This document shows positions 7,764 to 62,222 of a DNA stretch of 64,000 nucleotides, piece after piece. Both the position numbers and the translations under genes were made by a program. The stretch spans positions 1,054,001 to 1,118,000 of the forward strand of contig NZ_CP058559.1 of assembly GCF_014467015.1 (NCBI RefSeq), given 5' to 3'. The notes below the pieces were generated by a model. It searched no databases and was not told the origin of the DNA. It saw only the letters and a list, made by a program, of their open reading frames with translations. Origin of the DNA: Alkalicella caledoniensis (GTDB lineage Bacteria; Bacillota; Proteinivoracia; Proteinivoracales; Proteinivoracaceae). The first letter of the stretch is position 1; every line of letters begins with the position of its first letter.

Positions 7764-8102
7764 TTATTCCAGTAATTCATTCATTTTCTCGGTCATTTTA
7801 TACCAGTGATGTCTTAGTTTGTCATACACTTCTTCACCACATTTATTTAGCTGATAGTATTTCCTAGGTTTGGAGCTTTCCACATCCCAACTACTTTCTA
7901 ATAACCCTTGGCTTTCAAGCCTTCGAAGAAGTGGATATAATGTGCCAGAATCAACTTCTATTCCTTTTTCCTTTAAACACACTACTAAAGAATAACCGTA
8001 TTGAGGTTTATTTAACTGACTCATGACACTTAAAACTATAGTGCCTCTCCTTAGTTCTTGAATAAGACCATCAAGTAGTGTATCTTTTTTGACTTTATCC
8101 AC
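7764..8102 (-). CDS. PadR family transcriptional regulator
   Basis: About 112 residues. A winged helix-turn-helix is evident: LRRGTIVLSVMSQLNKPQYGYSL, then GIEVDSGTLYPLLRRLESQGLL, then PRKYYQLNKCGEE, all classic PadR segments. I chose the GTG start at 8102, which follows a well-placed AGGAGG site (8110-8115); the upstream ATG at 8138 falls within the promoter region. PadR proteins repress their own operons and respond to small molecules or stress. A palindromic candidate operator lies between its promoter elements (see 8122-8150). Confidence 0.87.
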   Translation of the reverse strand: MDKVKKDTLLDGLIQELRRGTIVLSVMSQLNKPQYGYSLVVCLKEKGIEVDSGTLYPLLRRLESQGLLESSWDVESSKPRKYYQLNKCGEEVYDKLRHHWYKMTEKMNELLE

Positions 8103-8121
8103 ATCGTCACCTCCTAAAATC

Positions 8122-8150
8122 ATTATACTGTGTATCATACACTATTACAA
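8122..8150 (-). promoter_or_regulatory. padR promoter with palindromic operator in the spacer
   Basis: On the minus strand a TTGTAA -35 (8145-8150) and a TATAAT -10 (8122-8127) are separated by exactly 17 bases. The spacer holds the perfect 13-base palindrome GTGTATGATACAC (8130-8142). A repressor bound there would block RNA polymerase, so PadR autorepression is the natural inference. The ribosome-binding site is close to the expected start, giving a very short leader. Confidence 0.65.
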
Positions 8151-8348
8151 ATGTTTTATTATAATTGTTTATTAACTATTGTTAACAATTTGGCAAGTTT
8201 AGTAATAAAAAAGAGCCCCAAAGGGACTCTTGACAGTCTGATAATACTTTAATTTATAAATTGGACTTAGTGGTATTTATCTTTTATAATTATATTAGTC
8301 TCAACTTTCGAATAATAATGCGTTAATCTGATAATGGAGGTTATGTTT

Positions 8349-8585
8349 ATGAAAAAACTTTCTATAGAGTACTGTACTGCATGAGGTTACTTAAGTAAGG
8401 CAGTTGGCCTTGCAGAGAGATTACTAAGTGCAAACAAAAAATCGATATCTTCTTTAACCCTGATCACTTCATCAGGTGGTGTTTTCGAAGTGAAGGTGGA
8501 GTCTGAATTAGTATTTTCTAAAAAAGAGTTAGAACGTTTCCCCAATGAGAACGAGGTAGAAACCTTAGTTAAAGAAAGATTGTAG
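8349..8585 (+). CDS. SelW-like (Rdx family) selenoprotein with in-frame UGA
   Basis: A 78-codon gene read through a TGA at 8382-8384 (codon 12), taken as selenocysteine. GGAGG at 8336-8340 precedes ATG 8349 by 8 bases. The start MKKLSIEYCTA-U-GYLSKAV gives a CxxU redox motif after the first strand. Downstream, LTLITSSGGVFEV, then a short strand, SKKELERFP and ETLVKERL match the Rdx/SelW/SelT thioredoxin-like fold over its full length. Directly after the TGA, bases 8395-8413 form a 7-bp stem with a 5-base loop beginning AG, placed as in bacterial SECIS elements. Such proteins are thought to act in thiol or selenium redox chemistry, but substrates are unknown. It has its own terminator. The selenocysteine machinery must be elsewhere in the genome. 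Confidence 0.88.
8395..8413 (+). promoter_or_regulatory. Candidate bacterial SECIS hairpin
   Basis: Sequence GTAAGGC-AGTTG-GCCTTGC: a 7-bp stem including one G-T pair, loop of 5 bases, starting 11 bases after the TGA at 8382-8384. SelB-binding hairpins in bacteria lie at this distance and within the coding sequence. Predicted by eye. Confidence 0.6.
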
Positions 8586-8608
8586 CTTATATGAAAGTTG
8601 AGAACTAA

Positions 8609-8645
8609 AATAAAACGGCCCTATTAGAAAAGGTGCCGTTTTATT
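8609..8645. terminator. Bidirectional terminator between selenoprotein and membrane protein genes
   Basis: Perfect 11-bp stem (8609-8619 with 8635-8645), 15-base loop, A-rich before and T-rich after. It lies between two convergent genes and could end both. Confidence 0.75.
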
Positions 8646-8654
8646 TGTTTAATA

Positions 8655-9179
8655 TTACTTAAGATATTTATTTAAAATTATATCAGCTTGGTTAAGTAGC
8701 ATTAGGAATAATACAGAAGCTACAATACTTCCTATTATAACTACTAAAATCATAATAGGAGCAACCATTAAAATTAGGATTGAAAAAAGTGCAGCTATAC
8801 TCATCACCAAGTATAGTTTCCACCTTTTTTGTGCAAGGTCAGCGAATTCTTCCTCAGCATTGTTTAAGGATACGTCTATTATACCCATACAGATGTAATA
8901 CACCAGCAAAATTTTTAGTATACTGTAAACTATATCTAGAAATACAATAAAGCTAACCATCTCTACCTCAAAATGGTAAAGTGAAAATATACTTAGGATT
9001 GCTACAGGTATTGCTACTTTCTTAGCAGTTTCAAATTTATCACTAAATTGTTCTAAATTACTCAATCCAACAACAACTAAGATAAAACCAACCACATCTG
9101 GCAAAAAATCAATTCTATTAATTCTAATATGAAAAAATACTAATATAAATCCCCAAAAAATCTTTCTAAATCCTCCCAT
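8655..9179 (-). CDS. Small polytopic membrane protein, unknown function
   Basis: 174 residues with four to five hydrophobic helices covering most of the protein. The start has a GAGGAGG site 8 bases upstream. A central acidic and basic stretch (NNAEEEFADLAQKRWK) would face the cytoplasm. I do not recognise a named family. It is the last gene of the minus-strand surface locus, about 100 bases after the sortase gene, so a role at the cell envelope is plausible but unproven. Confidence 0.7.
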   Translation of the reverse strand: MGGFRKIFWGFILVFFHIRINRIDFLPDVVGFILVVVGLSNLEQFSDKFETAKKVAIPVAILSIFSLYHFEVEMVSFIVFLDIVYSILKILLVYYICMGIIDVSLNNAEEEFADLAQKRWKLYLVMSIAALFSILILMVAPIMILVVIIGSIVASVLFLMLLNQADIILNKYLK

Positions 9180-9279: not shown

Positions 9280-9891
9280 TCAAATAACCTTTGCATGGAT
9301 AATTAGTCTATGTGTAGATCTATATAGAGGAGTACATGTAATTAGTGTTAGTATTCTTTCTTCTTTAGTACTTTTTAAAACTGATAAATCAGTAGGTACA
9401 ACAATTTTTTTATCATATACAGTGTATATAAATTCACCACTATATGTTTTTATTATAATTTTGTCACCTACCTCTAGTTCATCTAATCTATTAAAAAAGC
9501 GCCCATAGGTATGGGATCTATGTGCAGCTACGGCACTATTACCTATTTCCCCAAGTTCATTAGTTTCAGTAAGATGTCCTGCACCTTTATTCAAGTTGCT
9601 ATTGCTTGCACCAGGTAAAATTGGCAAAAGAACATCTATCTTAGGAATTTGAATTATACCCATTGTCCCTTCTTGTATGCTGGGATTGTAGACAGTTGCG
9701 TCATCCTCTGATGGAATCTGTTCCCCTGTATTTAATACATCGTTCATTTCCCTAAACTGCTGACCCACAGAACCTTCTTCCCACTGTTTCAGCAACTTTA
9801 GCTCCCAATAACCTCTGTAAGTATCTCGTGCAAATGGGTAGCAAGCGATAAGTATCCCTACTATGATTAGAATACTGCTTATTCTTTTCAT
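9280..9891 (-). CDS. Class D sortase
   Basis: 203 residues from ATG 9891. One N-terminal membrane anchor (about residues 4-20) and a C-terminal sortase domain. The catalytic triad is visible: His124 in AAHRSHTYGRFF, Cys186 in LTLITCTP and Arg195 in YRSTHRLII. IPKIDVLLPILPG and GAGHL are further sortase signatures. It joins the C-terminal sorting signal of secreted proteins to the cell wall, cutting between Thr and Gly of LPXTG. A candidate substrate, the LPKTG protein at 11650-13113, is encoded upstream. The stop of the preceding gene is 2 bases before this ATG, so the two are co-transcribed. Class D enzymes often prefer LPNTA, so this pairing is an inference. Confidence 0.9.
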   Translation of the reverse strand: MKRISSILIIVGILIACYPFARDTYRGYWELKLLKQWEEGSVGQQFREMNDVLNTGEQIPSEDDATVYNPSIQEGTMGIIQIPKIDVLLPILPGASNSNLNKGAGHLTETNELGEIGNSAVAAHRSHTYGRFFNRLDELEVGDKIIIKTYSGEFIYTVYDKKIVVPTDLSVLKSTKEERILTLITCTPLYRSTHRLIIHAKVI

Positions 9892-9893
9892 TA

Positions 9894-11561
9894 TCAAACA
9901 CCCCTTATCCTTTGATAGTAATTACAGTATCCGGAAAGGTTATGTTCGATATCATCTATTCTTACCCTGAAGGAATGATGGCGGATATAAAACCCCCATA
10001 GAATATTCTTAGGAACTTTAAAATACATAGCTACTTCTGGAAACATAAGTCCGTTGAGTTGGTGTTTTGCTCTGTGTATTGTAGCTGTTTCCAATTTTTT
10101 TAAGTCAAAGCCAGCAATTACTTCCCTATGGATATTATCTTTTCTACACTTATCTATCAACTTATTACTTGCCATAAGCAACTCTAAAAGTGTTGGAAAA
10201 GTAGTCTCTCTGGCAAGGCAAAAATCTAAAATACCTTCTACATTTTTCAAGTTAAATTCTAGGTACTTATGAAGTGGTTTGTGAAGGAATAGTTCATATG
10301 AACAGCAGCTTAACCAATGGTCGTTATAACGCCAATATTTATTTTGTATAAAGTATTCAAATGCTTTCTCCACCATATCTAACCATTTTTTATTTTTGTC
10401 TATTGAATATAATCGCATAAGGGAAAAAGCAGCCTCACCGTCATAATAGATTATTCTATGTTTTTCTCGTATGGAAAGATCAGGATAGTTTAATACATGA
10501 ACAAAAGAACCGTCTTCATTTTGAAAGTAGGCTATCCCCTGTGACAACTTCTCTAATGTTTCCATATATTTATAATCTGAAAAAACCTCGGTGTACTTAG
10601 ATAGGGCTAACACCGCTGCAGCGTTTGCACCAAGTTTTATTGAATTATTATCGGTTTTCTCGATAACAAACCCACACTTCTGCCCTTCATTATCTTCGAT
10701 GTACTTAACACCTTCATTCACTAAAAAACTCAGAGCTCTAGTTATAGCCTTTTGTAGACTATGGGATTTGGTAATCTCGTAGGCTTCAATCATAGAGTAT
10801 GTTGTACTGGCATGCCTAAGGATATTATAATGATTGATTTCTTTATCAAAACACGGGAAGTACCCATATCGGAACTGACCATCCTCCCCAACTTGACTTG
10901 CAAGGAATTCTGAAGATTTTTCGATAATAAACTTAACTAAGCTAATGTCTAGGTTTTCTACATACCTTCTACCATTGTCCAACCAGTCATATCCTAGTTT
11001 GAAATAAGTACTGCCATCATGGAACATTCCCGCTGTTTTAAATGTATATACTTTTGGTACCACATCGTTGTCTAGTAAAAGCTTCAATCCTAGGTTATAT
11101 TTTATGTAGAAATTTATATTTTTCCACACTAAGTTTTTTAGATTATATTGCTTGTTTTCGTAGATAAATCCATTTGCATTAACTTCTTGCTCCAGAAAAG
11201 ATAGTTTAAAATTACTGTCAAAAGCAATCCCTTCTCTGAAATAATTTATTTTTATACCTGCTATATAATTTTTGAAATCTCTCATGCTAAATTCCTTAAT
11301 TTGTGTTACTATATCTGTTTTAAACCATTTAGGGTTTAATTTGTTATTTTTTATTTTCTTTTCTGCTAATACTAAAGCTTTATTCCAGCTTTCCTCAAAA
11401 GTGTTACTTACACCGCTACATACATAGGCCCTTGATTCTGGTTCACCAAAGGAGATGAATACAATATGAATCAATTTACCCTCTAGCACCACTCCTTTAT
11501 TTGTCTGTTGAATCGCTTCTTTTAACTCTAATAATTGTTTTTCTAAGCTGAGGACACTCAT
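9894..11561 (-). CDS. Large uncharacterised protein with toroid-like helical repeats
   Basis: 555 residues, no signal peptide. The N-terminal 150 residues are mixed alpha/beta and unrecognised. From about residue 170 on, repeated helical pairs with aromatic, glycine and glutamine-rich turns (FRYGYFPCFDKEINHYN, GSFVHVLNY, YYDGEAAFSLMRLY) resemble the (alpha/alpha)6 toroid of glycoside hydrolase-like, epimerase or cyclase enzymes. Function is not assigned. It is translationally linked to the sortase gene and downstream of the LPKTG surface protein, so modification of a surface glycan or the surface protein itself is a reasonable hypothesis. Start has a GGGGGAG site. A terminator separates it from the LPKTG gene. 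Confidence 0.75.
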   Translation of the reverse strand: MSVLSLEKQLLELKEAIQQTNKGVVLEGKLIHIVFISFGEPESRAYVCSGVSNTFEESWNKALVLAEKKIKNNKLNPKWFKTDIVTQIKEFSMRDFKNYIAGIKINYFREGIAFDSNFKLSFLEQEVNANGFIYENKQYNLKNLVWKNINFYIKYNLGLKLLLDNDVVPKVYTFKTAGMFHDGSTYFKLGYDWLDNGRRYVENLDISLVKFIIEKSSEFLASQVGEDGQFRYGYFPCFDKEINHYNILRHASTTYSMIEAYEITKSHSLQKAITRALSFLVNEGVKYIEDNEGQKCGFVIEKTDNNSIKLGANAAAVLALSKYTEVFSDYKYMETLEKLSQGIAYFQNEDGSFVHVLNYPDLSIREKHRIIYYDGEAAFSLMRLYSIDKNKKWLDMVEKAFEYFIQNKYWRYNDHWLSCCSYELFLHKPLHKYLEFNLKNVEGILDFCLARETTFPTLLELLMASNKLIDKCRKDNIHREVIAGFDLKKLETATIHRAKHQLNGLMFPEVAMYFKVPKNILWGFYIRHHSFRVRIDDIEHNLSGYCNYYQRIRGV

Positions 11562-11649: not shown

Positions 11650-13113
11650 TTACTTAATTGGATTAAACCATTTTCTTTTCTTCATTGTGATACCAATCAT
11701 ACTGATAAATCCGCCCAATCCATAGAATAGCCCAGCAGCTCTATCACCTGTCTTTGGCAGTTTATCGTTTTCATCGTCATCATCACCACTGTCGTCATCA
11801 TCAGCATCAGCATCGGCATCAGCATCAGCATCAGCATCGGCATCAGCATCAGCATCGGCATCAGCATCAGCATCGGCGTCGGCATCGGCATCGGCGTCGG
11901 CATCGGCATCGGCGTCGGCATCGGCGTCGGCGTCGGCATCGGCGTCGGCATCGGCATCGGCATCGGCATCGGCATCGGCATCGGCATCGGCATCGGCATC
12001 GGCGTCGGCATCGGCGTCGGCATCGGCGTCGGCATCGGCGTCGGCGTCGGCATCGGCGTCGGCATCAGCGTCAGCATCGGCGTCGGCATCAGCGTCGGCA
12101 TCAGCGTCGGCATCAGCATCAGCATCAGCATCGGCATCAGCATCGGCGTCAGCATCGGCGTCAGCATCGGCGTCAGCATCGGCGTCAGCATCGGCGTCGG
12201 CGTCGGCATCGGCGTCGGCATCAGCGTCAGCATCGGCGTCGGCATCAGCGTCGGCATCAGCGTCGGCATCAGCATCAGCATCAGCATCGGCATCAGCATC
12301 GGCGTCAGCATCGGCGTCAGCATCGGCGTCAGCATCGGCGTCAGCATCGGCGTCAGCATCGGCGTCAGCATCGGCGTCAGCATCGGCGTCAGCATCGGCG
12401 TCAGCATCGGCGTCAGCATCGGCGTCAGCATCGGCGTCAGCATCGGCGTCAGCATCGGCGTCAGCATCGGAATCATCTACCTCATCGAAGTCAAATGACA
12501 CATGGCTTATTTCTGCCCAGTTACCTTCATTGCCATCAGTTCTAGGTGAGAATAACTCAGTATCTTCTAGGTAACCATCTTCATAGTTAAAAATAAAATG
12601 CCAGTTAGCTGCTTTAACATAAACTCTGACAACCTTAATGGTTGGATCTTCATGAACCCACTCCCAATCAAATGTATGGCTGGTAGAATTTGAAATAATT
12701 ATCTTCCCTCCGTTATAGGGATGCTCGCCGTCGAAAACTTCTCCACCTATGTTGTCTATTTTGAATATACCATAGCCATTGCCAGGGTAAAGCACTGGCA
12801 CTATTTCATTTCCTGTTTTTGTGGGTATACTTGAAAATACTACATATTCTTCATCTTCATCAATTTCCTCTAAATCCCAGTGCTCTTCCTCATTCTGATA
12901 TTCATCTATTTCAGGGATTTCAGTTTTTATTTCTTCGATAGTATCGTAGCTTTGTTCATTTGTTTCATTAGCATAAGCGGTTATAGGGCTCACCAAGCGA
13001 CTTACTAAGAATCCACCCACAAGAAGCTTAGTTACTAACTTCCTTTTCCTTTCTTGATCATTTTCCCATTTTTTCCTCTGGTGTTTTAATTTCTTTAGCA
13101 AACTTTTCGACAT
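11650..13113 (-). CDS. LPKTG cell-wall-anchored protein with a long Asp-Ala repeat stalk
   Basis: 487 residues. A basic N-terminus followed by a hydrophobic stretch ([19 protein letters not shown]) forms a signal peptide. Residues about 50-213 form a single acidic, aromatic domain of unknown fold (carbohydrate binding is possible but not shown). Residues about 214-440 are roughly 110 consecutive Asp-Ala pairs, then an Asp/Ser/Asn-rich linker, LPKTG (452-456), a hydrophobic helix and a basic tail: a complete sortase signal. The stalk is analogous to the Ser-Asp stalks of staphylococcal adhesins and would be highly charged. The repeat has far higher GC than the surroundings and internal duplications. 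Start has a GGAGGAG site. Confidence 0.92.
11800..12470 (-). repeat. Hexanucleotide repeat tract encoding Asp-Ala pairs
   Basis: About 670 bases built from 6-base units of the form GCNTCG/A on the plus strand (GAC/T-GCC/G/T on the coding strand). The order of synonymous variants is not random: the block 12032-12187 is repeated without change at 12188-12343 (period 156 bases, 26 units), and the 12420-12470 end is a pure 12-base repeat. Such tracts expand and contract by slippage or recombination without changing frame. Confidence 0.9.
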
Positions 13114-21606: not shown

Positions 21607-23339
21607 GAGACTGTGTCAAAAGCATTTTGAATACTTGGGTTTAATTTATAAATACCCCCTCATGAACTAATAAAATATGGTATAATATACATATGAAAAG
21701 TCTTTTATACCAGGGCTTTACAGCGCTTTTAATTCATGAAAAGGTGGGGATAAAATGAATTTTGTCCAAGGTGCAGATAGAAGTCAAATCACAATGTTTC
21801 CTGAAGCAATAGATGATTATATCGATGATAACAATTCAGTGATAGTTATTGATGTTTATGTGGATAGCCTAGATATGAAAAGCTTAGGATTTAAAAAAAC
21901 TACACCAAATGATATGGGCCGACCAATGTATTCACCTCAACTCATGCTTAAAATATATCTTTATGGCTACTTAAATAAAATAAGGTCCACTAGAAGACTA
22001 GAAACAGAAACCAAAAGAAACTTAGAGATGATGTGGCTTACAAAGAAATTATCGCCAGATCACAAAACTATCTCTAGATTTAGAAAAGATAACCCTAAAG
22101 CACTAAAGAAGGTGTTTCGAGATTTTGTAAAGTTATGTTCTCGATTGGGGCTATACGGCAAAGAACTTATCTCAGTTGATGGTAGTAGATTTAGTGGTGT
22201 AAACTCTAAAGATAATAACTTCAATGATTCTAAATTAAAAGATAGAATTAAACGCTTAGATATTAAAATTGATCAATACCTAAAAGAATTAGATAATAAC
22301 GACAAAAAAGAAGACACAACCGACAACCCAAAATCAGCTGAAGAGATAAGTGAAATTATTAAAGAATTGAAAAGTAGAAAAGAAAAATATGAGCAAATGA
22401 AGAAACATCTAGAAGAAACTGAAGAAACTCAGGTATCTCTAGTGGACCCCGATACTAGGCGGCTAACTAAGAATGGAGAAACAAAAATAGGTTATAATGT
22501 CCAAACAGCTGTGGACAGCAAAAATAAAATGATTGCAGAGTTTGATGTAACGAACTCCATAAATGACTTTGGCCATTTATCTGTTACCAGCCAAAAAGCT
22601 AAAGAGATATTAGAAGTTGATACAATAAAAACAACGGCAGATAAAGGTTATAATTCTGCAACTGATATAGCAGAATGTTTAATGAATGGAATAGAACCTC
22701 ATGTGTGTATGGAAGAAGACGAAATCACAATATGTCTAGAGATATTAGGCGAAGCAAAAGATGTGGATCAAATCATAGAACCACATGTTAATGGTAGATT
22801 TGTGTATCTAAAGAAGCGCAATATAGCACTGTGTCCCATGGGGAAAATTTTTTACCCTAGTTCATACTCAAAGAATAAAAAAGAGGCGAGATTCTGTAAC
22901 CGAAAGGAATGTAGAAAGTGCCAGAACAAGTGTACAGCCAGTGAGTACAAAGACTTTGGCAAAAAGATGAAGAAGCAAGAATTCACTAAAGAATACAACG
23001 ATAACAACTTGAGAATTAAACAAGTAAGAGTAAAAAATGATCCTGCAATAACTAGGCAAAGAAAAGAAATTGTAGAGCATCCATATGGCACAATAAAAAG
23101 AGCCATGGACTCAGAATATTGTTTAATGCGAGGCATGAACAATGTTGTGGGTGAGTTTTCATTGTCTTTTTTAGCCTACAACCTAAAAAGAGCAGTAAAC
23201 ATTTTAGGTTGTAGAGGGCTAATTCAAGCAATAACTAATACATAGGAAGGTCGACTCCCGATAATTTCATAACAATAGCTGTGACGTGGGGATAGCCCCT
23301 TTTTTTTATTACTTTTTTCTTCATATATGACACAGTCTC
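21607..23339 (+). mobile_element. IS1182-family insertion sequence, 1733 bp
   Basis: Bounded by perfect 12-bp inverted repeats GAGACTGTGTCA (21607-21618) and its complement (23328-23339), and flanked by a direct repeat TTGT (21603-21606 and 23340-23343). Removing it restores GGGCCCC-TTGT-GGGGCCC, a perfect hairpin whose loop is the target duplication. It carries one transposase gene on the plus strand and is probably recent, as both ends are intact. Confidence 0.85.
21755..23245 (+). CDS. IS1182-family transposase
   Basis: 496 residues. N-terminal DUF772-like part (FVQGADRSQITMFPEAIDDYI; SPQLMLKIYLYGYLNKIRSTRRLE) with DHKTISRFRKDNPKALKKVF, then an RNase H-like DDE domain: SVDGSRFSGVNSKDNN, an intervening coiled, charged segment (about residues 165-235), TTADKGYNSATDIAEC, and a C-terminal VEHPYGTIKRAMDSEYCLMRG. 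A cysteine-rich patch (CNRKECRKCQNKC) precedes the last block, a usual IS1182 feature. Full length, so likely functional. GTGGGGAT site before the ATG. Confidence 0.92.
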   Translation: MNFVQGADRSQITMFPEAIDDYIDDNNSVIVIDVYVDSLDMKSLGFKKTTPNDMGRPMYSPQLMLKIYLYGYLNKIRSTRRLETETKRNLEMMWLTKKLSPDHKTISRFRKDNPKALKKVFRDFVKLCSRLGLYGKELISVDGSRFSGVNSKDNNFNDSKLKDRIKRLDIKIDQYLKELDNNDKKEDTTDNPKSAEEISEIIKELKSRKEKYEQMKKHLEETEETQVSLVDPDTRRLTKNGETKIGYNVQTAVDSKNKMIAEFDVTNSINDFGHLSVTSQKAKEILEVDTIKTTADKGYNSATDIAECLMNGIEPHVCMEEDEITICLEILGEAKDVDQIIEPHVNGRFVYLKKRNIALCPMGKIFYPSSYSKNKKEARFCNRKECRKCQNKCTASEYKDFGKKMKKQEFTKEYNDNNLRIKQVRVKNDPAITRQRKEIVEHPYGTIKRAMDSEYCLMRGMNNVVGEFSLSFLAYNLKRAVNILGCRGLIQAITNT

Positions 23340-49887: not shown

Positions 49888-51765
49888 GAGGGTGTCGCAA
49901 AACTACTGAATAAGTAGTTAGCGACACCCTCTTTTTGTTAAAAAAAATAGGATATTAATAAATTTTAAGTGCAGCAAAGAGAAATTTTCCTAAGAGTTTG
50001 TTTTTAGACGCACTTAAATAAGACTATAGAATATTAGTCTTTTCAATCTCCAAACTATGAGACTTTCAGTTCATGAAGGTGATGCCCACAGCGCCCATTC
50101 TTAAGCTTGGCATGAAGTTTATTCATGTTATAGCCTAAGCCTAATAGAAGTGTTTCTACACTCACGCTGTGGATACCTCTTGTCAAAAATCTTTGAAATC
50201 CATAATCTTGCTTTAGAACTCCAAAAGCACCTTCAGCCTGAATAGACCTGTTAACCCTGAGTTTAACTCCGTTTTTAGACACTATATTTTGATATGATAT
50301 TTGCCTTTTCTCTATAAACTTTTTAGATACCTGTAACTTTTTGTTACCTTGTGCTTTTGTACATTTAGGCTTAAACTGACAGTTTGTACAATCCTCACAT
50401 TCGTACACAGTGGCTTCAGATTTATAGCCAGTTACTGATGTTCTAATGATTTTACCAGTAGCTTTTAATTTCTTGTTGTTGTGACATGTATACTCATCGA
50501 GCTTAGAATCATAAACCATATTTTCGCGCTTGCTTATATCTTTTTTAAAGCTTCTTTTTTTCCATCTATCATAAGTCTGGGGTTTTATATAGTATGTATA
50601 TCCCTTCTTTTCGAGGAAAAGGTAATTTTCCTCACTTTCATACCCAGAGTCTGCAATTATGTTTTTATACTTTAATTTTAATCTTTCCTCCATCTTTCCT
50701 AGGAAGGGGATCAATGTACCAATATCTGATCTGTTTTGGAATACTCCTACGGATACTATATACTCACTCTCTACACCTATTTGCAAATTGTAGCCAGGCT
50801 TTAGTTGAGAGTTTCTCATGTGGTCATCTTTCATTCTCATAAAAGTAGCACCTGTATCTGTTTTAGAGTAACTACTTCTACCTTGGAATATTTCATTGCA
50901 TGAATCGTACTTCACTTGTCTTTCATAAAATGACTGCACTTCCTCAGTAAATTTTTGAAGCTTACTTTTTCTTTTGCCGATTCCATAAACAAATTCTACT
51001 TTTCCCTCTTCCTTCCTTTGCTTTAAGAAGGACAATATGCAGTTTAAATCGTCTAACATTCTCTCCTTGGAAACTATAAATTCGACACTATAATGTTCAT
51101 TTAAATCTCTCAAGAAGTTCTGTACTTTATCAAACATCTTAGCTTCATTTTTCTTTACGACCTTATCCCATACAAACGTATATTTATTTGCATTGGCTTC
51201 TATTTTTGTCCCATCAATAAAGAGATTCTCAAATTTAACTTCACCTATTTCTTTTAAATGTAAGATGAATTGGTAAAACAAATCTTCAACTGCATTAGAT
51301 AAGTAAATCTTTCGGAACCTTGCAATAGTGCTATGATCGGGGCATTTATTTCCCTCTAATAGCCACATAAAATTTATATCTCTTTTGCATGCAGTTTCAA
51401 TTTTTCTACTTGAATAAATGTTATTCATGTAAGCGTAGGTTAACACCTTAAAAAGAAGTTTTGGTTCAACTGCTGGTTTTCTTCCCTTAGAAGAGTATGC
51501 CTTGTATAAACCTTGATAGTTTAATCCCTCCAATATTTGGCTTAGCAGTCGAACAGAATCATCTTCAGGTATTAAAGTTTCTAAATTTAATGGTAAAACT
51601 AATTGATAACTACCATTAAATCGGGTATAATATGAGTGTTGTGTATTTGTTCTCATAAACCAATTATACAACACTAGCGGACCCTTTGGGCCCGCTTTTT
51701 ATTATTTTTATACAAAAAAGAGGCTGAATGCACAATGAATTATTCATTCATTGTGCAACAGCCCC
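49888..51765 (-). mobile_element. IS1182-family insertion sequence with hairpin ends, about 1.88 kb
   Basis: Left end AGGGTGTCGCAAAAC (from 49889) and right end complement GGGGCTGTTGCACAATG (ending 51765) agree over about 50 bases. Each end is itself a hairpin (AGAGGGTGTCGC with GCGACACCCTCTTT; GCACAATGAAT with ATTCATTGTGC). The hairpins end in T-runs, so outside transcription would be stopped. I could not define a target duplication, so exact borders are approximate. The gene-free stretch 49767-49887 shows nothing else. Confidence 0.75.
50055..51656 (-). CDS. IS1182-family transposase
   Basis: About 533 residues from ATG 51656 (an in-frame ATG at 51674 is also possible). N-terminal DUF772-like region LVLPLNLETLIPEDDSVRLLSQIL, YAYMNNIYSSRKIETACKRDI and CPDHSTIARFRKIYLSNAVEDLF. 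DDE domain: NLFIDGTKIEANANKYTF, IIADSGYESEENYLFLEKKG, and a cysteine-rich C-terminal block (CEDCTNCQFKPKC) then INRSIQAEGAFG-type segment. Full length, so likely intact. Confidence 0.9.
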   Translation of the reverse strand: MRTNTQHSYYTRFNGSYQLVLPLNLETLIPEDDSVRLLSQILEGLNYQGLYKAYSSKGRKPAVEPKLLFKVLTYAYMNNIYSSRKIETACKRDINFMWLLEGNKCPDHSTIARFRKIYLSNAVEDLFYQFILHLKEIGEVKFENLFIDGTKIEANANKYTFVWDKVVKKNEAKMFDKVQNFLRDLNEHYSVEFIVSKERMLDDLNCILSFLKQRKEEGKVEFVYGIGKRKSKLQKFTEEVQSFYERQVKYDSCNEIFQGRSSYSKTDTGATFMRMKDDHMRNSQLKPGYNLQIGVESEYIVSVGVFQNRSDIGTLIPFLGKMEERLKLKYKNIIADSGYESEENYLFLEKKGYTYYIKPQTYDRWKKRSFKKDISKRENMVYDSKLDEYTCHNNKKLKATGKIIRTSVTGYKSEATVYECEDCTNCQFKPKCTKAQGNKKLQVSKKFIEKRQISYQNIVSKNGVKLRVNRSIQAEGAFGVLKQDYGFQRFLTRGIHSVSVETLLLGLGYNMNKLHAKLKNGRCGHHLHELKVS

Positions 51766-52406: not shown

Positions 52407-54095
52407 AGAGACAGGGGGACGTCAGACTGTGTGGCTAATCTCTAAAAACTCAAAGATTAGCCGTAAAATTCCTGTCTTTTGGTGCAATATGACTTAAACA
52501 TATAAAAATACAATGATAAAGTGGGTCTAAGAGCTACTAATATCCTTAGTAGTTCTTTCACTCCTATAATATTTATTACTCTTTTAAAATTATAGGCTAG
52601 CAAAACTAGGGCTGTCTCTGTAGTTACAGAATCCATCCCTCTTGTTAAAAAATACCCAGCATTCATTGTCCTTTTGATGGTTCCATAAGGATGCTCAACA
52701 ATCATCTGCCTTTGTAGGTATTTGTCCATATTTGCTTCTGTTCTAGCATCTATAGTATCCAAAAAATCTTGGTTAGGTGACCGATTTATTATCCTGCCTT
52801 TGGCTGCAGTGGTGCATTTGCTTTTTGATTCACAGTTTTTACAGGCATCGTAGTTTCTATATTTTATTCTTTTTGGTTCTTTTGATTTGTGGTTTATTCT
52901 GCGTAATTCATGGCCCAAAGGACAAATATATAAGTCTTTTTCAGGCACATAAGTAAATTTATCTCCGTAGAAATCTTTGTCTCCTGTGGCGTTAGAATAC
53001 GACTGTTTTGGCAAATAGACTGTTGTTTCGTTTCTCTCACATTTCATAAGGTCGTCTGCTTGGTAATAGCCTTTATCTGCTGCTACTTCAAGTTTCCTTT
53101 TTCCAAATATATCTTTAGCCTTTTCTGCAAGTGAATTTAGATTACCTTGATCTGCGGGATTGTTTGTAACATCATATGCCACTATAATACTATGCTTAGA
53201 GTCTACAGCTGTTTGTATGTTATATGCTACAGTAACACCATTGTTTTTGTTGTCCATAAGCCTAGCATCTTCGTCAACTGTAGATATTTCATTACTTTCG
53301 CTATCCTGTAGTTTTTTTTCCAACTCTTCAAATTTAATTTTACGCTCCTTGAGTTTTTCAATTTTTTGCTGAATTTCTTCAGGTGTATACTTAAGTTTAG
53401 GTGAATCGTCTTTGTCACTGCTTTCTAACAAATCTAGATAGGAATTAACCTTATCTTCGATATATTGTTTGTGTCTTTGTATTTTTTTCTTTGAGAAATT
53501 ATTCTTCTTTGAATTATTAGCTTGAATTTTAGTCCCATCTATTGCTATGAATTCCTCGCCTAATAGTTTGAGATCCTTACACAACTTAGTAAAATCCTTG
53601 AAAACTTGTTTTAGCTGAGTTTTATTTTCTTTCCTGAAATCAGCTATTGTTTTAAAATCAGGTTTTAGTTTTTGTAATAGCCAAACCACTTCTATATTCC
53701 TGTGAGATTCTGTTTCTAGCTTTCTAGATGATCTTATGCCATTTACATACCCATATAGATATAACTTCAATAAAACAGAGGGATGATATCCTGGTGCACC
53801 TCTGCGGTGTTCCTTTGATTTAGTGAATGCACTCATATTGACCAGTTTTACGTATTCATCAATTACCCTAACGGGATTATCCTCACCTATGTAATCTTCT
53901 ATGCAGTCAGGAAACATTGTTTTTTGCTTTCTATCTGTACCTTGTATAAATGACATTTAAAATCCCCTCTCCGATATTCTATAACTTAATTATACTACAG
54001 AAAAAGGGAAAAGTACTGTATTTACAGTACTTTGTAGGCATTTTAGACATATATTATTGTTTAATTCTCACACAGTCTGACGTCCCCTTGTCCCT
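52407..54095 (-). mobile_element. IS1182-family insertion sequence, about 1.69 kb
   Basis: 27-bp inverted ends (52407-52433 with 54069-54095), 25 of 27 matching, including GGGGACGTCAGACTGTGTG. They share the ACTGTGT core with the IS at 21607. It carries one transposase on the minus strand. Inserted in the GrpB gene; no clear target duplication was found. Confidence 0.85.
52457..53956 (-). CDS. IS1182-family transposase
   Basis: 499 residues, related to but distinct from the transposase at 21755-23245 (both start with FxQGxDRxQxTMFP). DUF772 region, then VVWLLQKLKPDFKTIADFRKEN, then DDE pieces FIAIDGTKIQANNSKKNN, VAADKGYYQADDLMKCE and VEHPYGTIKRTMNAGYFLTRGMDSV, with a cysteine cluster CKNCESKSKC. 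GAGAGGGGAT site before the ATG. Full length. Confidence 0.92.
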   Translation of the reverse strand: MSFIQGTDRKQKTMFPDCIEDYIGEDNPVRVIDEYVKLVNMSAFTKSKEHRRGAPGYHPSVLLKLYLYGYVNGIRSSRKLETESHRNIEVVWLLQKLKPDFKTIADFRKENKTQLKQVFKDFTKLCKDLKLLGEEFIAIDGTKIQANNSKKNNFSKKKIQRHKQYIEDKVNSYLDLLESSDKDDSPKLKYTPEEIQQKIEKLKERKIKFEELEKKLQDSESNEISTVDEDARLMDNKNNGVTVAYNIQTAVDSKHSIIVAYDVTNNPADQGNLNSLAEKAKDIFGKRKLEVAADKGYYQADDLMKCERNETTVYLPKQSYSNATGDKDFYGDKFTYVPEKDLYICPLGHELRRINHKSKEPKRIKYRNYDACKNCESKSKCTTAAKGRIINRSPNQDFLDTIDARTEANMDKYLQRQMIVEHPYGTIKRTMNAGYFLTRGMDSVTTETALVLLAYNFKRVINIIGVKELLRILVALRPTLSLYFYMFKSYCTKRQEFYG

Positions 54096-61352: not shown

Positions 61353-62222
61353 TTAGTTATTGTTCCAATGCTTAGGGGGACTAAGTAATGGTGGTAGTTT
61401 TGTACCTTTATCTCCTTTAGCAACGTTAAGTTGAGCTTGGGTAAGAAAAATACTCTTACTTAGGTCAGTTCCTCTTAGGTCAGCGTCTCTTAGATCTGCT
61501 CCTATGAAATCAACACCATTTAGATCTGTCCCTCTAAGGTCAGCAGCAATAAGGCATGCCCCTCTCAAGTTCGCACCCCTTAGATCAGTTTTTCTGAGGT
61601 CCGCAGCTATAAGGTCAGCTCTTTGATCTAAGGTTTTCTTGCGCCGCGGCTGACTTCCCTGAACTTGTATAGCATTGCGTACAAGTTCACTCACCCTTAC
61701 AAGAAGAGTATTAACCTCTCCACGCAATGCTGCAACGTCAACTTTTATAAGGGAATTACTGTCGAGGAGACTGAGTCGTTCTAACTCTCCAACCTTGGAA
61801 CTAAGTTCATTTTGTATAGGGCTAGCTTGTTGCAACGTTAACGATTCAGTTAAATACCAGAGTAACTCATGAAGTTGCCTCATGATTAAGAACACCTCGA
61901 ACATTTGCTTAGAGAGTTCGGGGTATTTTCTCCAATTCCGTCCATCAAAACTGATTCTGGCAACCTTTTGCCCTGCACCAAAACAGTCAAATGCATTGCA
62001 GCCTTTCATTCCTCTATCAATTAAGTTTTCGTGAATATTACAACGAAAGTCTGTTTGTAGATTGGGACAAGGCTCACCTGCATTTTTATCTACTGGGAAC
62101 CCTTCTGAGGCAGAAAAATAAAGTGCAATACAGCACAAACCGAAACAGTTTTCGCAGTCAGCATACAGTTTATTGTGATTATTATCATTCATGTATATTA
62201 AATCTTTCTTGTTTTCACACAT
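61353..62222 (-). CDS. Pentapeptide-repeat protein with cysteine-rich N-terminus
   Basis: 289 residues. Residues 19-90 have a cysteine-rich block ([37 protein letters not shown]) that could bind zinc or iron. A helical middle (about 95-190) follows, then about eleven A(D/N)LRxxx-type pentapeptide repeats ([21 protein letters not shown]..) that should fold as a beta-helix. Function is unknown; some pentapeptide proteins bind topoisomerases. AAGGAGG site before the ATG. Related combined proteins occur in other Firmicutes, as far as I recall. Confidence 0.85.

Follow-up and report, generated by a model that had tools for sequence, protein, structure and literature searches.

A SelW-like gene with an in-frame UGA codon in Alkalicella caledoniensis very probably encodes a selenoprotein of the Rdx family

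Within a window of 64,000 nucleotides from the genome of Alkalicella caledoniensis (contig NZ_CP058559.1, forward-strand positions 1,054,001 to 1,118,000), a gene that a stop codon seems to interrupt very probably codes for a thioredoxin-like selenocysteine (Sec) protein of 78 residues, a clear and ordinary addition to a family known since 2005. We hold it to be nearly certain that the gene specifies a stand-alone bacterial SelW-like selenoprotein, in which the UGA at positions 8382-8384 of the window would be decoded as Sec via a downstream SECIS hairpin. Genes of this kind are easily missed by standard annotation because UGA resembles a stop. The features of the locus, in window coordinates, are the following.

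8262..8290 (+): possible sigma-70 promoter TGGACT-17-TATAAT; weak, the number of matches in the region being at chance level
8336..8340 (+): ribosome-binding site GGAGG, 8 nt upstream of the ATG, read from the sequence
8349..8585 (+): selW-like (Rdx family) gene, very probably a selenoprotein gene; start ATG 8349, 78 codons plus TAG stop 8583-8585
8373..8384 (+): CTAU redox motif (TGT ACT GCA TGA); Cys9 and position 12 do not vary among 14 homologues
8382..8384 (+): in-frame TGA, codon 12, probably read as Sec, as judged from TGA conservation in homologues and the Sec machinery of the genome
8395..8413 (+): putative SECIS hairpin of the bacterial type, with a 7-bp stem and the loop AGUUG 17 nt past the UGA
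about 8607..8646 (+): probable intrinsic terminator (AAATAAAACGGC...GCCGTTTTATTT) 3' of the selW-like gene; fold of 8601-8655, -19.7 kcal/mol

Reading frame, protein family and predicted fold

The initial annotation had proposed a frame with a strong ribosome-binding site, interrupted by an in-frame TGA within a CTAU motif and agreeing with the Rdx fold over its full length. The start, ribosome-binding site, TGA codon, motif and stop are all present as listed above, and profile searches together with the predicted fold establish the family. Read with TGA as U, the frame translates to MKKLSIEYCTAUGYLSKAVGLAERLLSANKKSISSLTLITSSGGVFEVKVESELVFSKKELERFPNENEVETLVKERL. The Pfam Rdx profile (PF10262), whose cut-off is 22.6 bits, matches this protein with 76.8 bits and aligns residues 4-75 with profile positions 2-73 of 74; since this match (E = 1.5e-21) spans the TGA, the frame 8349-8585 lies far beyond chance. 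TIGR02174 likewise scores above its cut-off (54.9 versus 34.2 bits). The NCBIfam equivalog NF041051 (SelTWH_Campy) reaches 86 bits, under its cut-off of 88, and the protein is a relative of that group that is not assigned to the equivalog. A six-frame search of the genome returned the 8349-8585 locus as its only Rdx gene, with a single TGA inside it.

The AlphaFold model, built using 14 homologues, has a pLDDT of 95.7 and the element order beta-alpha-beta-beta-beta-alpha, with CTAU (residues 9-12) in the loop that follows strand 1, between strand 2-9 and helix 15-28. The best Foldseek matches to it in the PDB come without exception from SelW-related proteins of bacteria (TMq 0.90-0.94, with a TM of ~0.93 as the overall figure; rmsd ~1.0). 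The protein has the CxxU-in-loop arrangement of the Rdx/SelW family. The bacterial Rdx structures 2obk, 2fa8, 3dex and 2p0g have the same fold (TM 0.90-0.94) at 22-39% identity; the present gene differs in having TGA as the codon of its second redox residue. Mouse SelW (2npb) shares the Rdx/SelW thioredoxin-like fold at a TMq of 0.72, below the bacterial matches; it is a eukaryotic protein, and in eukaryotes the SECIS element resides in the 3' UTR, outside the coding region (PMC1088965).

The extent of this fold also bears on whether the UGA might be a true stop, ending an 11-residue leader peptide, with the remainder of the protein made from an internal GTG start at 8490 (31 codons). Although a mechanical GTG ORF does exist at 8490-8585, it would halve the Rdx fold; residues 12-47 are conserved without a break, and the frame has no ATG past the TGA. 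We regard internal initiation as extremely improbable and treat 8349-8585 as one continuous Rdx frame. An antisense ORF at 8387-8545 (52 codons), embedded in and shorter than this conserved frame, was judged to be a product of chance.

The selW-like gene stands alone between two opposite-strand genes, which encode a PadR-like regulator upstream (7764-8138) and a 174-residue protein without a Pfam match downstream (8655-9179). Another nearby opposite-strand gene encodes a HAAS-like protein, with a score below the cut-off, and the nature of these neighbors suggests no partner for the SelW-like protein. An Rfam scan of 8100-8700 returned nothing meaningful, and the probable terminator at ~8607-8646 was absent from the list produced by the consensus scan.

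Elsewhere in the window, translations read by eye include a surface protein that has a sortase signal (LPKTGD) and an Asp-Ala repeat of great length (11650-13113, minus strand), adjoined by a sortase-like ORF (9280-9897, minus strand), as well as a protein whose N-terminal part is rich in cysteine and whose C-terminal repeats resemble pentapeptide repeats (ADLRGADL...; 61353-62222, minus strand). Transposase-like ORFs recognized by inspection at 21755-23245, 50055-51674 and 52457-53956 suggest that the region is rich in insertion sequences.

Selenocysteine machinery and conservation of the UGA codon

Judged from its gene content, the genome is able to make selenocysteine, and the machinery is complete. 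Profile searches identified selA (555 bits), selB (386 bits) and selD (366 bits), and Rfam identified tRNA-Sec (73 bits versus a cut-off of 47), the four forming one cluster at C1:2181301-2186644 (2.181-2.187 Mb). ARAGORN independently calls a tRNA-SeC with anticodon TCA in this cluster. The selD gene itself carries an in-frame TGA at its active site (GUGAKIGP), and grdB, located near the cluster, has one at the UxxC site (...TSTUGTCTRCGA...); at least two further genes of the organism thus have UGA at established Sec positions.

Homologues of the selW-like gene were collected with peptide search patterns that left out the CxxU site. The contig search yielded 14 homologues, from Tissierellia, Planctomycetes, Chloroflexi and other groups, and all of them carry TGA at the identical codon. 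In a sample of the phylum, 30 of 398 genomes had an Rdx match, one of which was a C-terminal fragment and was left out; TGA occupies the Sec codon in 27 of the remaining 29 full-length genes, the present one included. The two exceptions have TGC (Cys; L049) and CGA (Arg; L062). These counts (27/29 and 14/14) agree with the reported rarity of Cys forms in Sec-using organisms, where Sec is probably ancestral (PMC1794560). Beyond the TGA, the protein shares 59-64% of its residues with near relatives, 16-29 codons differing only synonymously, and dN/dS is 0.32 and 0.14 in the two pairs for which dS could be computed, the other pairs being saturated.

These results weigh against two further readings of the locus. 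The Cys codon of L049 and the Arg codon of L062 would fit a UGA read as Cys or Arg, or else as Trp, through general reassignment or suppression. However, the UCA-anticodon tRNA of the sel cluster is tRNA-Sec by both ARAGORN and Rfam, the UGA codons of SelD and GrdB fall exactly at known Sec sites, and the neighboring genes of the window are open under the standard code, with no general reassignment apparent; we accordingly give this reading next to no credence. The gene might instead be a pseudogene, that is, an ancestrally Cys-containing Rdx gene broken by a chance nonsense mutation, as the TGA stop itself and the lack of an Rdx gene in the four genomes sampled from its family could indicate. 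This is very unlikely, if slightly less so than the foregoing, given that relatives across phyla have TGA at the same codon with the frame open beyond it, that conservation past the TGA is at the protein level, that the ribosome-binding site, the start and stop codons and the probable terminator are intact, and that the genome possesses the Sec machinery. The initial annotation had named two grounds for abandoning Sec at codon 12, namely a genome devoid of selA, selB, selD and tRNA-Sec, or homologues revealing a random stop in an unconserved frame. Neither is the case here, each computational check that it had proposed gave a positive outcome, and the Rdx match across the TGA, the Sec machinery and the retention of TGA in homologues together support its reading of TGA as selenocysteine.

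The Arg-containing L062 is a near relative of Rdx-DUF2703 fusions, its CGA being one transition away from TGA and the remainder of the protein intact. The fusions themselves (L061, L063, L064, L065 and L066), which come from another family of the phylum, have an N-terminal CVEU with UGA and, two codons ahead of the final stop, another in-frame TGA (..KCTUS, ..SSCUS, ..GCTUK). A hairpin of the CCCGC-AGUUU-GCGGG type lies ~18-20 nt past this second TGA and is followed by a T run. A terminator might here serve at the same time as the SECIS of a C-terminal Sec, but the second TGA and hairpin may equally be a simple stop plus terminator. None of the papers searched mentions DUF2703 together with selenocysteine.

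The downstream hairpin as a candidate SECIS element

The initial annotation had also pointed to a 7-bp hairpin after the TGA, and folding of 8382-8425 recovered this stem as part of the predicted minimum free energy (MFE) structure (-12.0 kcal/mol), with arms at 8395-8401 and 8407-8413 (GUAAGGC-AGUUG-GCCUUGC) and a gap of 10 nt between TGA and stem. Published limits for bacterial SECIS elements (PMC13188914) comprise a stem of 4-16 bp, a loop of 3-9 nt with G in one of its first two positions, a UGA-to-loop distance of 16-37 nt and an MFE of at most -7.5 kcal/mol. The hairpin falls within all of them, having 7 bp, a 5-nt loop (AGUUG) with G in second position, a distance of 17 nt and an MFE of -12.0 kcal/mol.

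Taken alone, the hairpin is weak evidence, being no more than modestly out of the ordinary: among 200 shuffles, 7 fold equally well (z = -2.0), and an equally strong SECIS-like hairpin follows 34 of the 2174 TGA trinucleotides of the window (1.6%). Compared with synonymous recodings of the selW-like gene alone, it did not reach significance (p = 0.11), and a family-wide test was therefore made on 31 distinct sites outside the present gene's own group, with codons resampled synonymously from local usage and pair positions numbered so that the T of TGA is 0. In the register common to the family, in which positions 19-23 pair with 29-33, the sequences form on average 4.77 of 5 pairs, compared to 3.51 +/- 0.12 after recoding (maximum 3.90 among 500); the Stouffer value (-5.1) and the spread of the null overstate independence, since the sequences in both recoding tests are related. 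Furthermore, one pair of this register varies among C-G, T-A, A-T and G-C. Sequence comparison thus argues strongly that the downstream hairpin of the relatives is under selection and has been kept beyond the needs of the protein.

The present gene fits the family register more poorly, as do the five relatives closest to it (L024-L028), and these sequences form another hairpin, whose loop starts 17-18 nt after the UGA, ~4 nt nearer to it than the hairpin of the remaining members (compared with L039-L066). Both registers are inside the published UGA-to-loop range. The SECIS of the present SelW group may have shifted by ~4 nt toward the UGA, with a new stem arising in the same codons and two registers coexisting in one orthologous family, a scenario we consider plausible but somewhat short of an even chance. 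If true, it would be a natural instance of a SECIS changing place while the protein sequence stayed nearly fixed, and the two registers could serve to test the tolerance of SelB for SECIS placement.

We infer that the hairpin at 8395-8413 is the SECIS of the selW-like gene. Positioned just 3' of the UGA, it would recruit SelB with Sec-tRNA(UCA), and, by analogy with the family, ribosomes arriving at UGA 8382-8384 would insert selenocysteine because of this recruitment. By the same analogy, Cys9-x-x-Sec12 on this small thioredoxin-fold protein is probably a thiol/selenol redox center, at which a selenenylsulfide would be formed and reduced by turns.

Known SelW proteins and distribution of the gene

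The Sargasso Sea set contained bacterial SelW-like selenoproteins as its most abundant family (PMC1088965), and a 2006 listing includes those of Alkaliphilus metalliredigens, Desulfotomaculum reducens and Symbiobacterium (PMC1794560). The present protein shares with them (PF10262; PMC1088965, PMC1794560, PMC13188914) its family, length, CxxU position and UGA codon, and likewise a putative SECIS just downstream and occurrence in anaerobic Firmicutes. It shows no difference in kind; its sequence is new, with ~60-65% identity to the nearest relatives found. An interaction with glutathione has been mentioned for the SelW family (PMC1088965), and the functions of bacterial SelW-like proteins are still largely uncharacterized (PMC13188914).

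In Campylobacter jejuni, full-length translation of SelW (CJnc60 transcript) past the UGA has been confirmed by Ribo-seq and proteomics (PMC11955535). That protein likewise has ~80 residues, its UGA being read through by tRNA-Sec; the present one scores 86 against the 88 of NF041051, and read-through, proven by Ribo-seq and mass spectrometry in C. jejuni, is here predicted from sequence.

Within the order, selA is present in all five sampled genomes and the Rdx gene in one of them, the present genome. From the same GTDB family, four genomes were sampled; all possess selA and none has an Rdx gene, and the gene is therefore dispensable in this lineage. Its distribution is patchy within a lineage that retains the Sec trait, and the locus adds one well-supported gene to the selenoprotein family, in a lineage where all four relatives sampled go without it.
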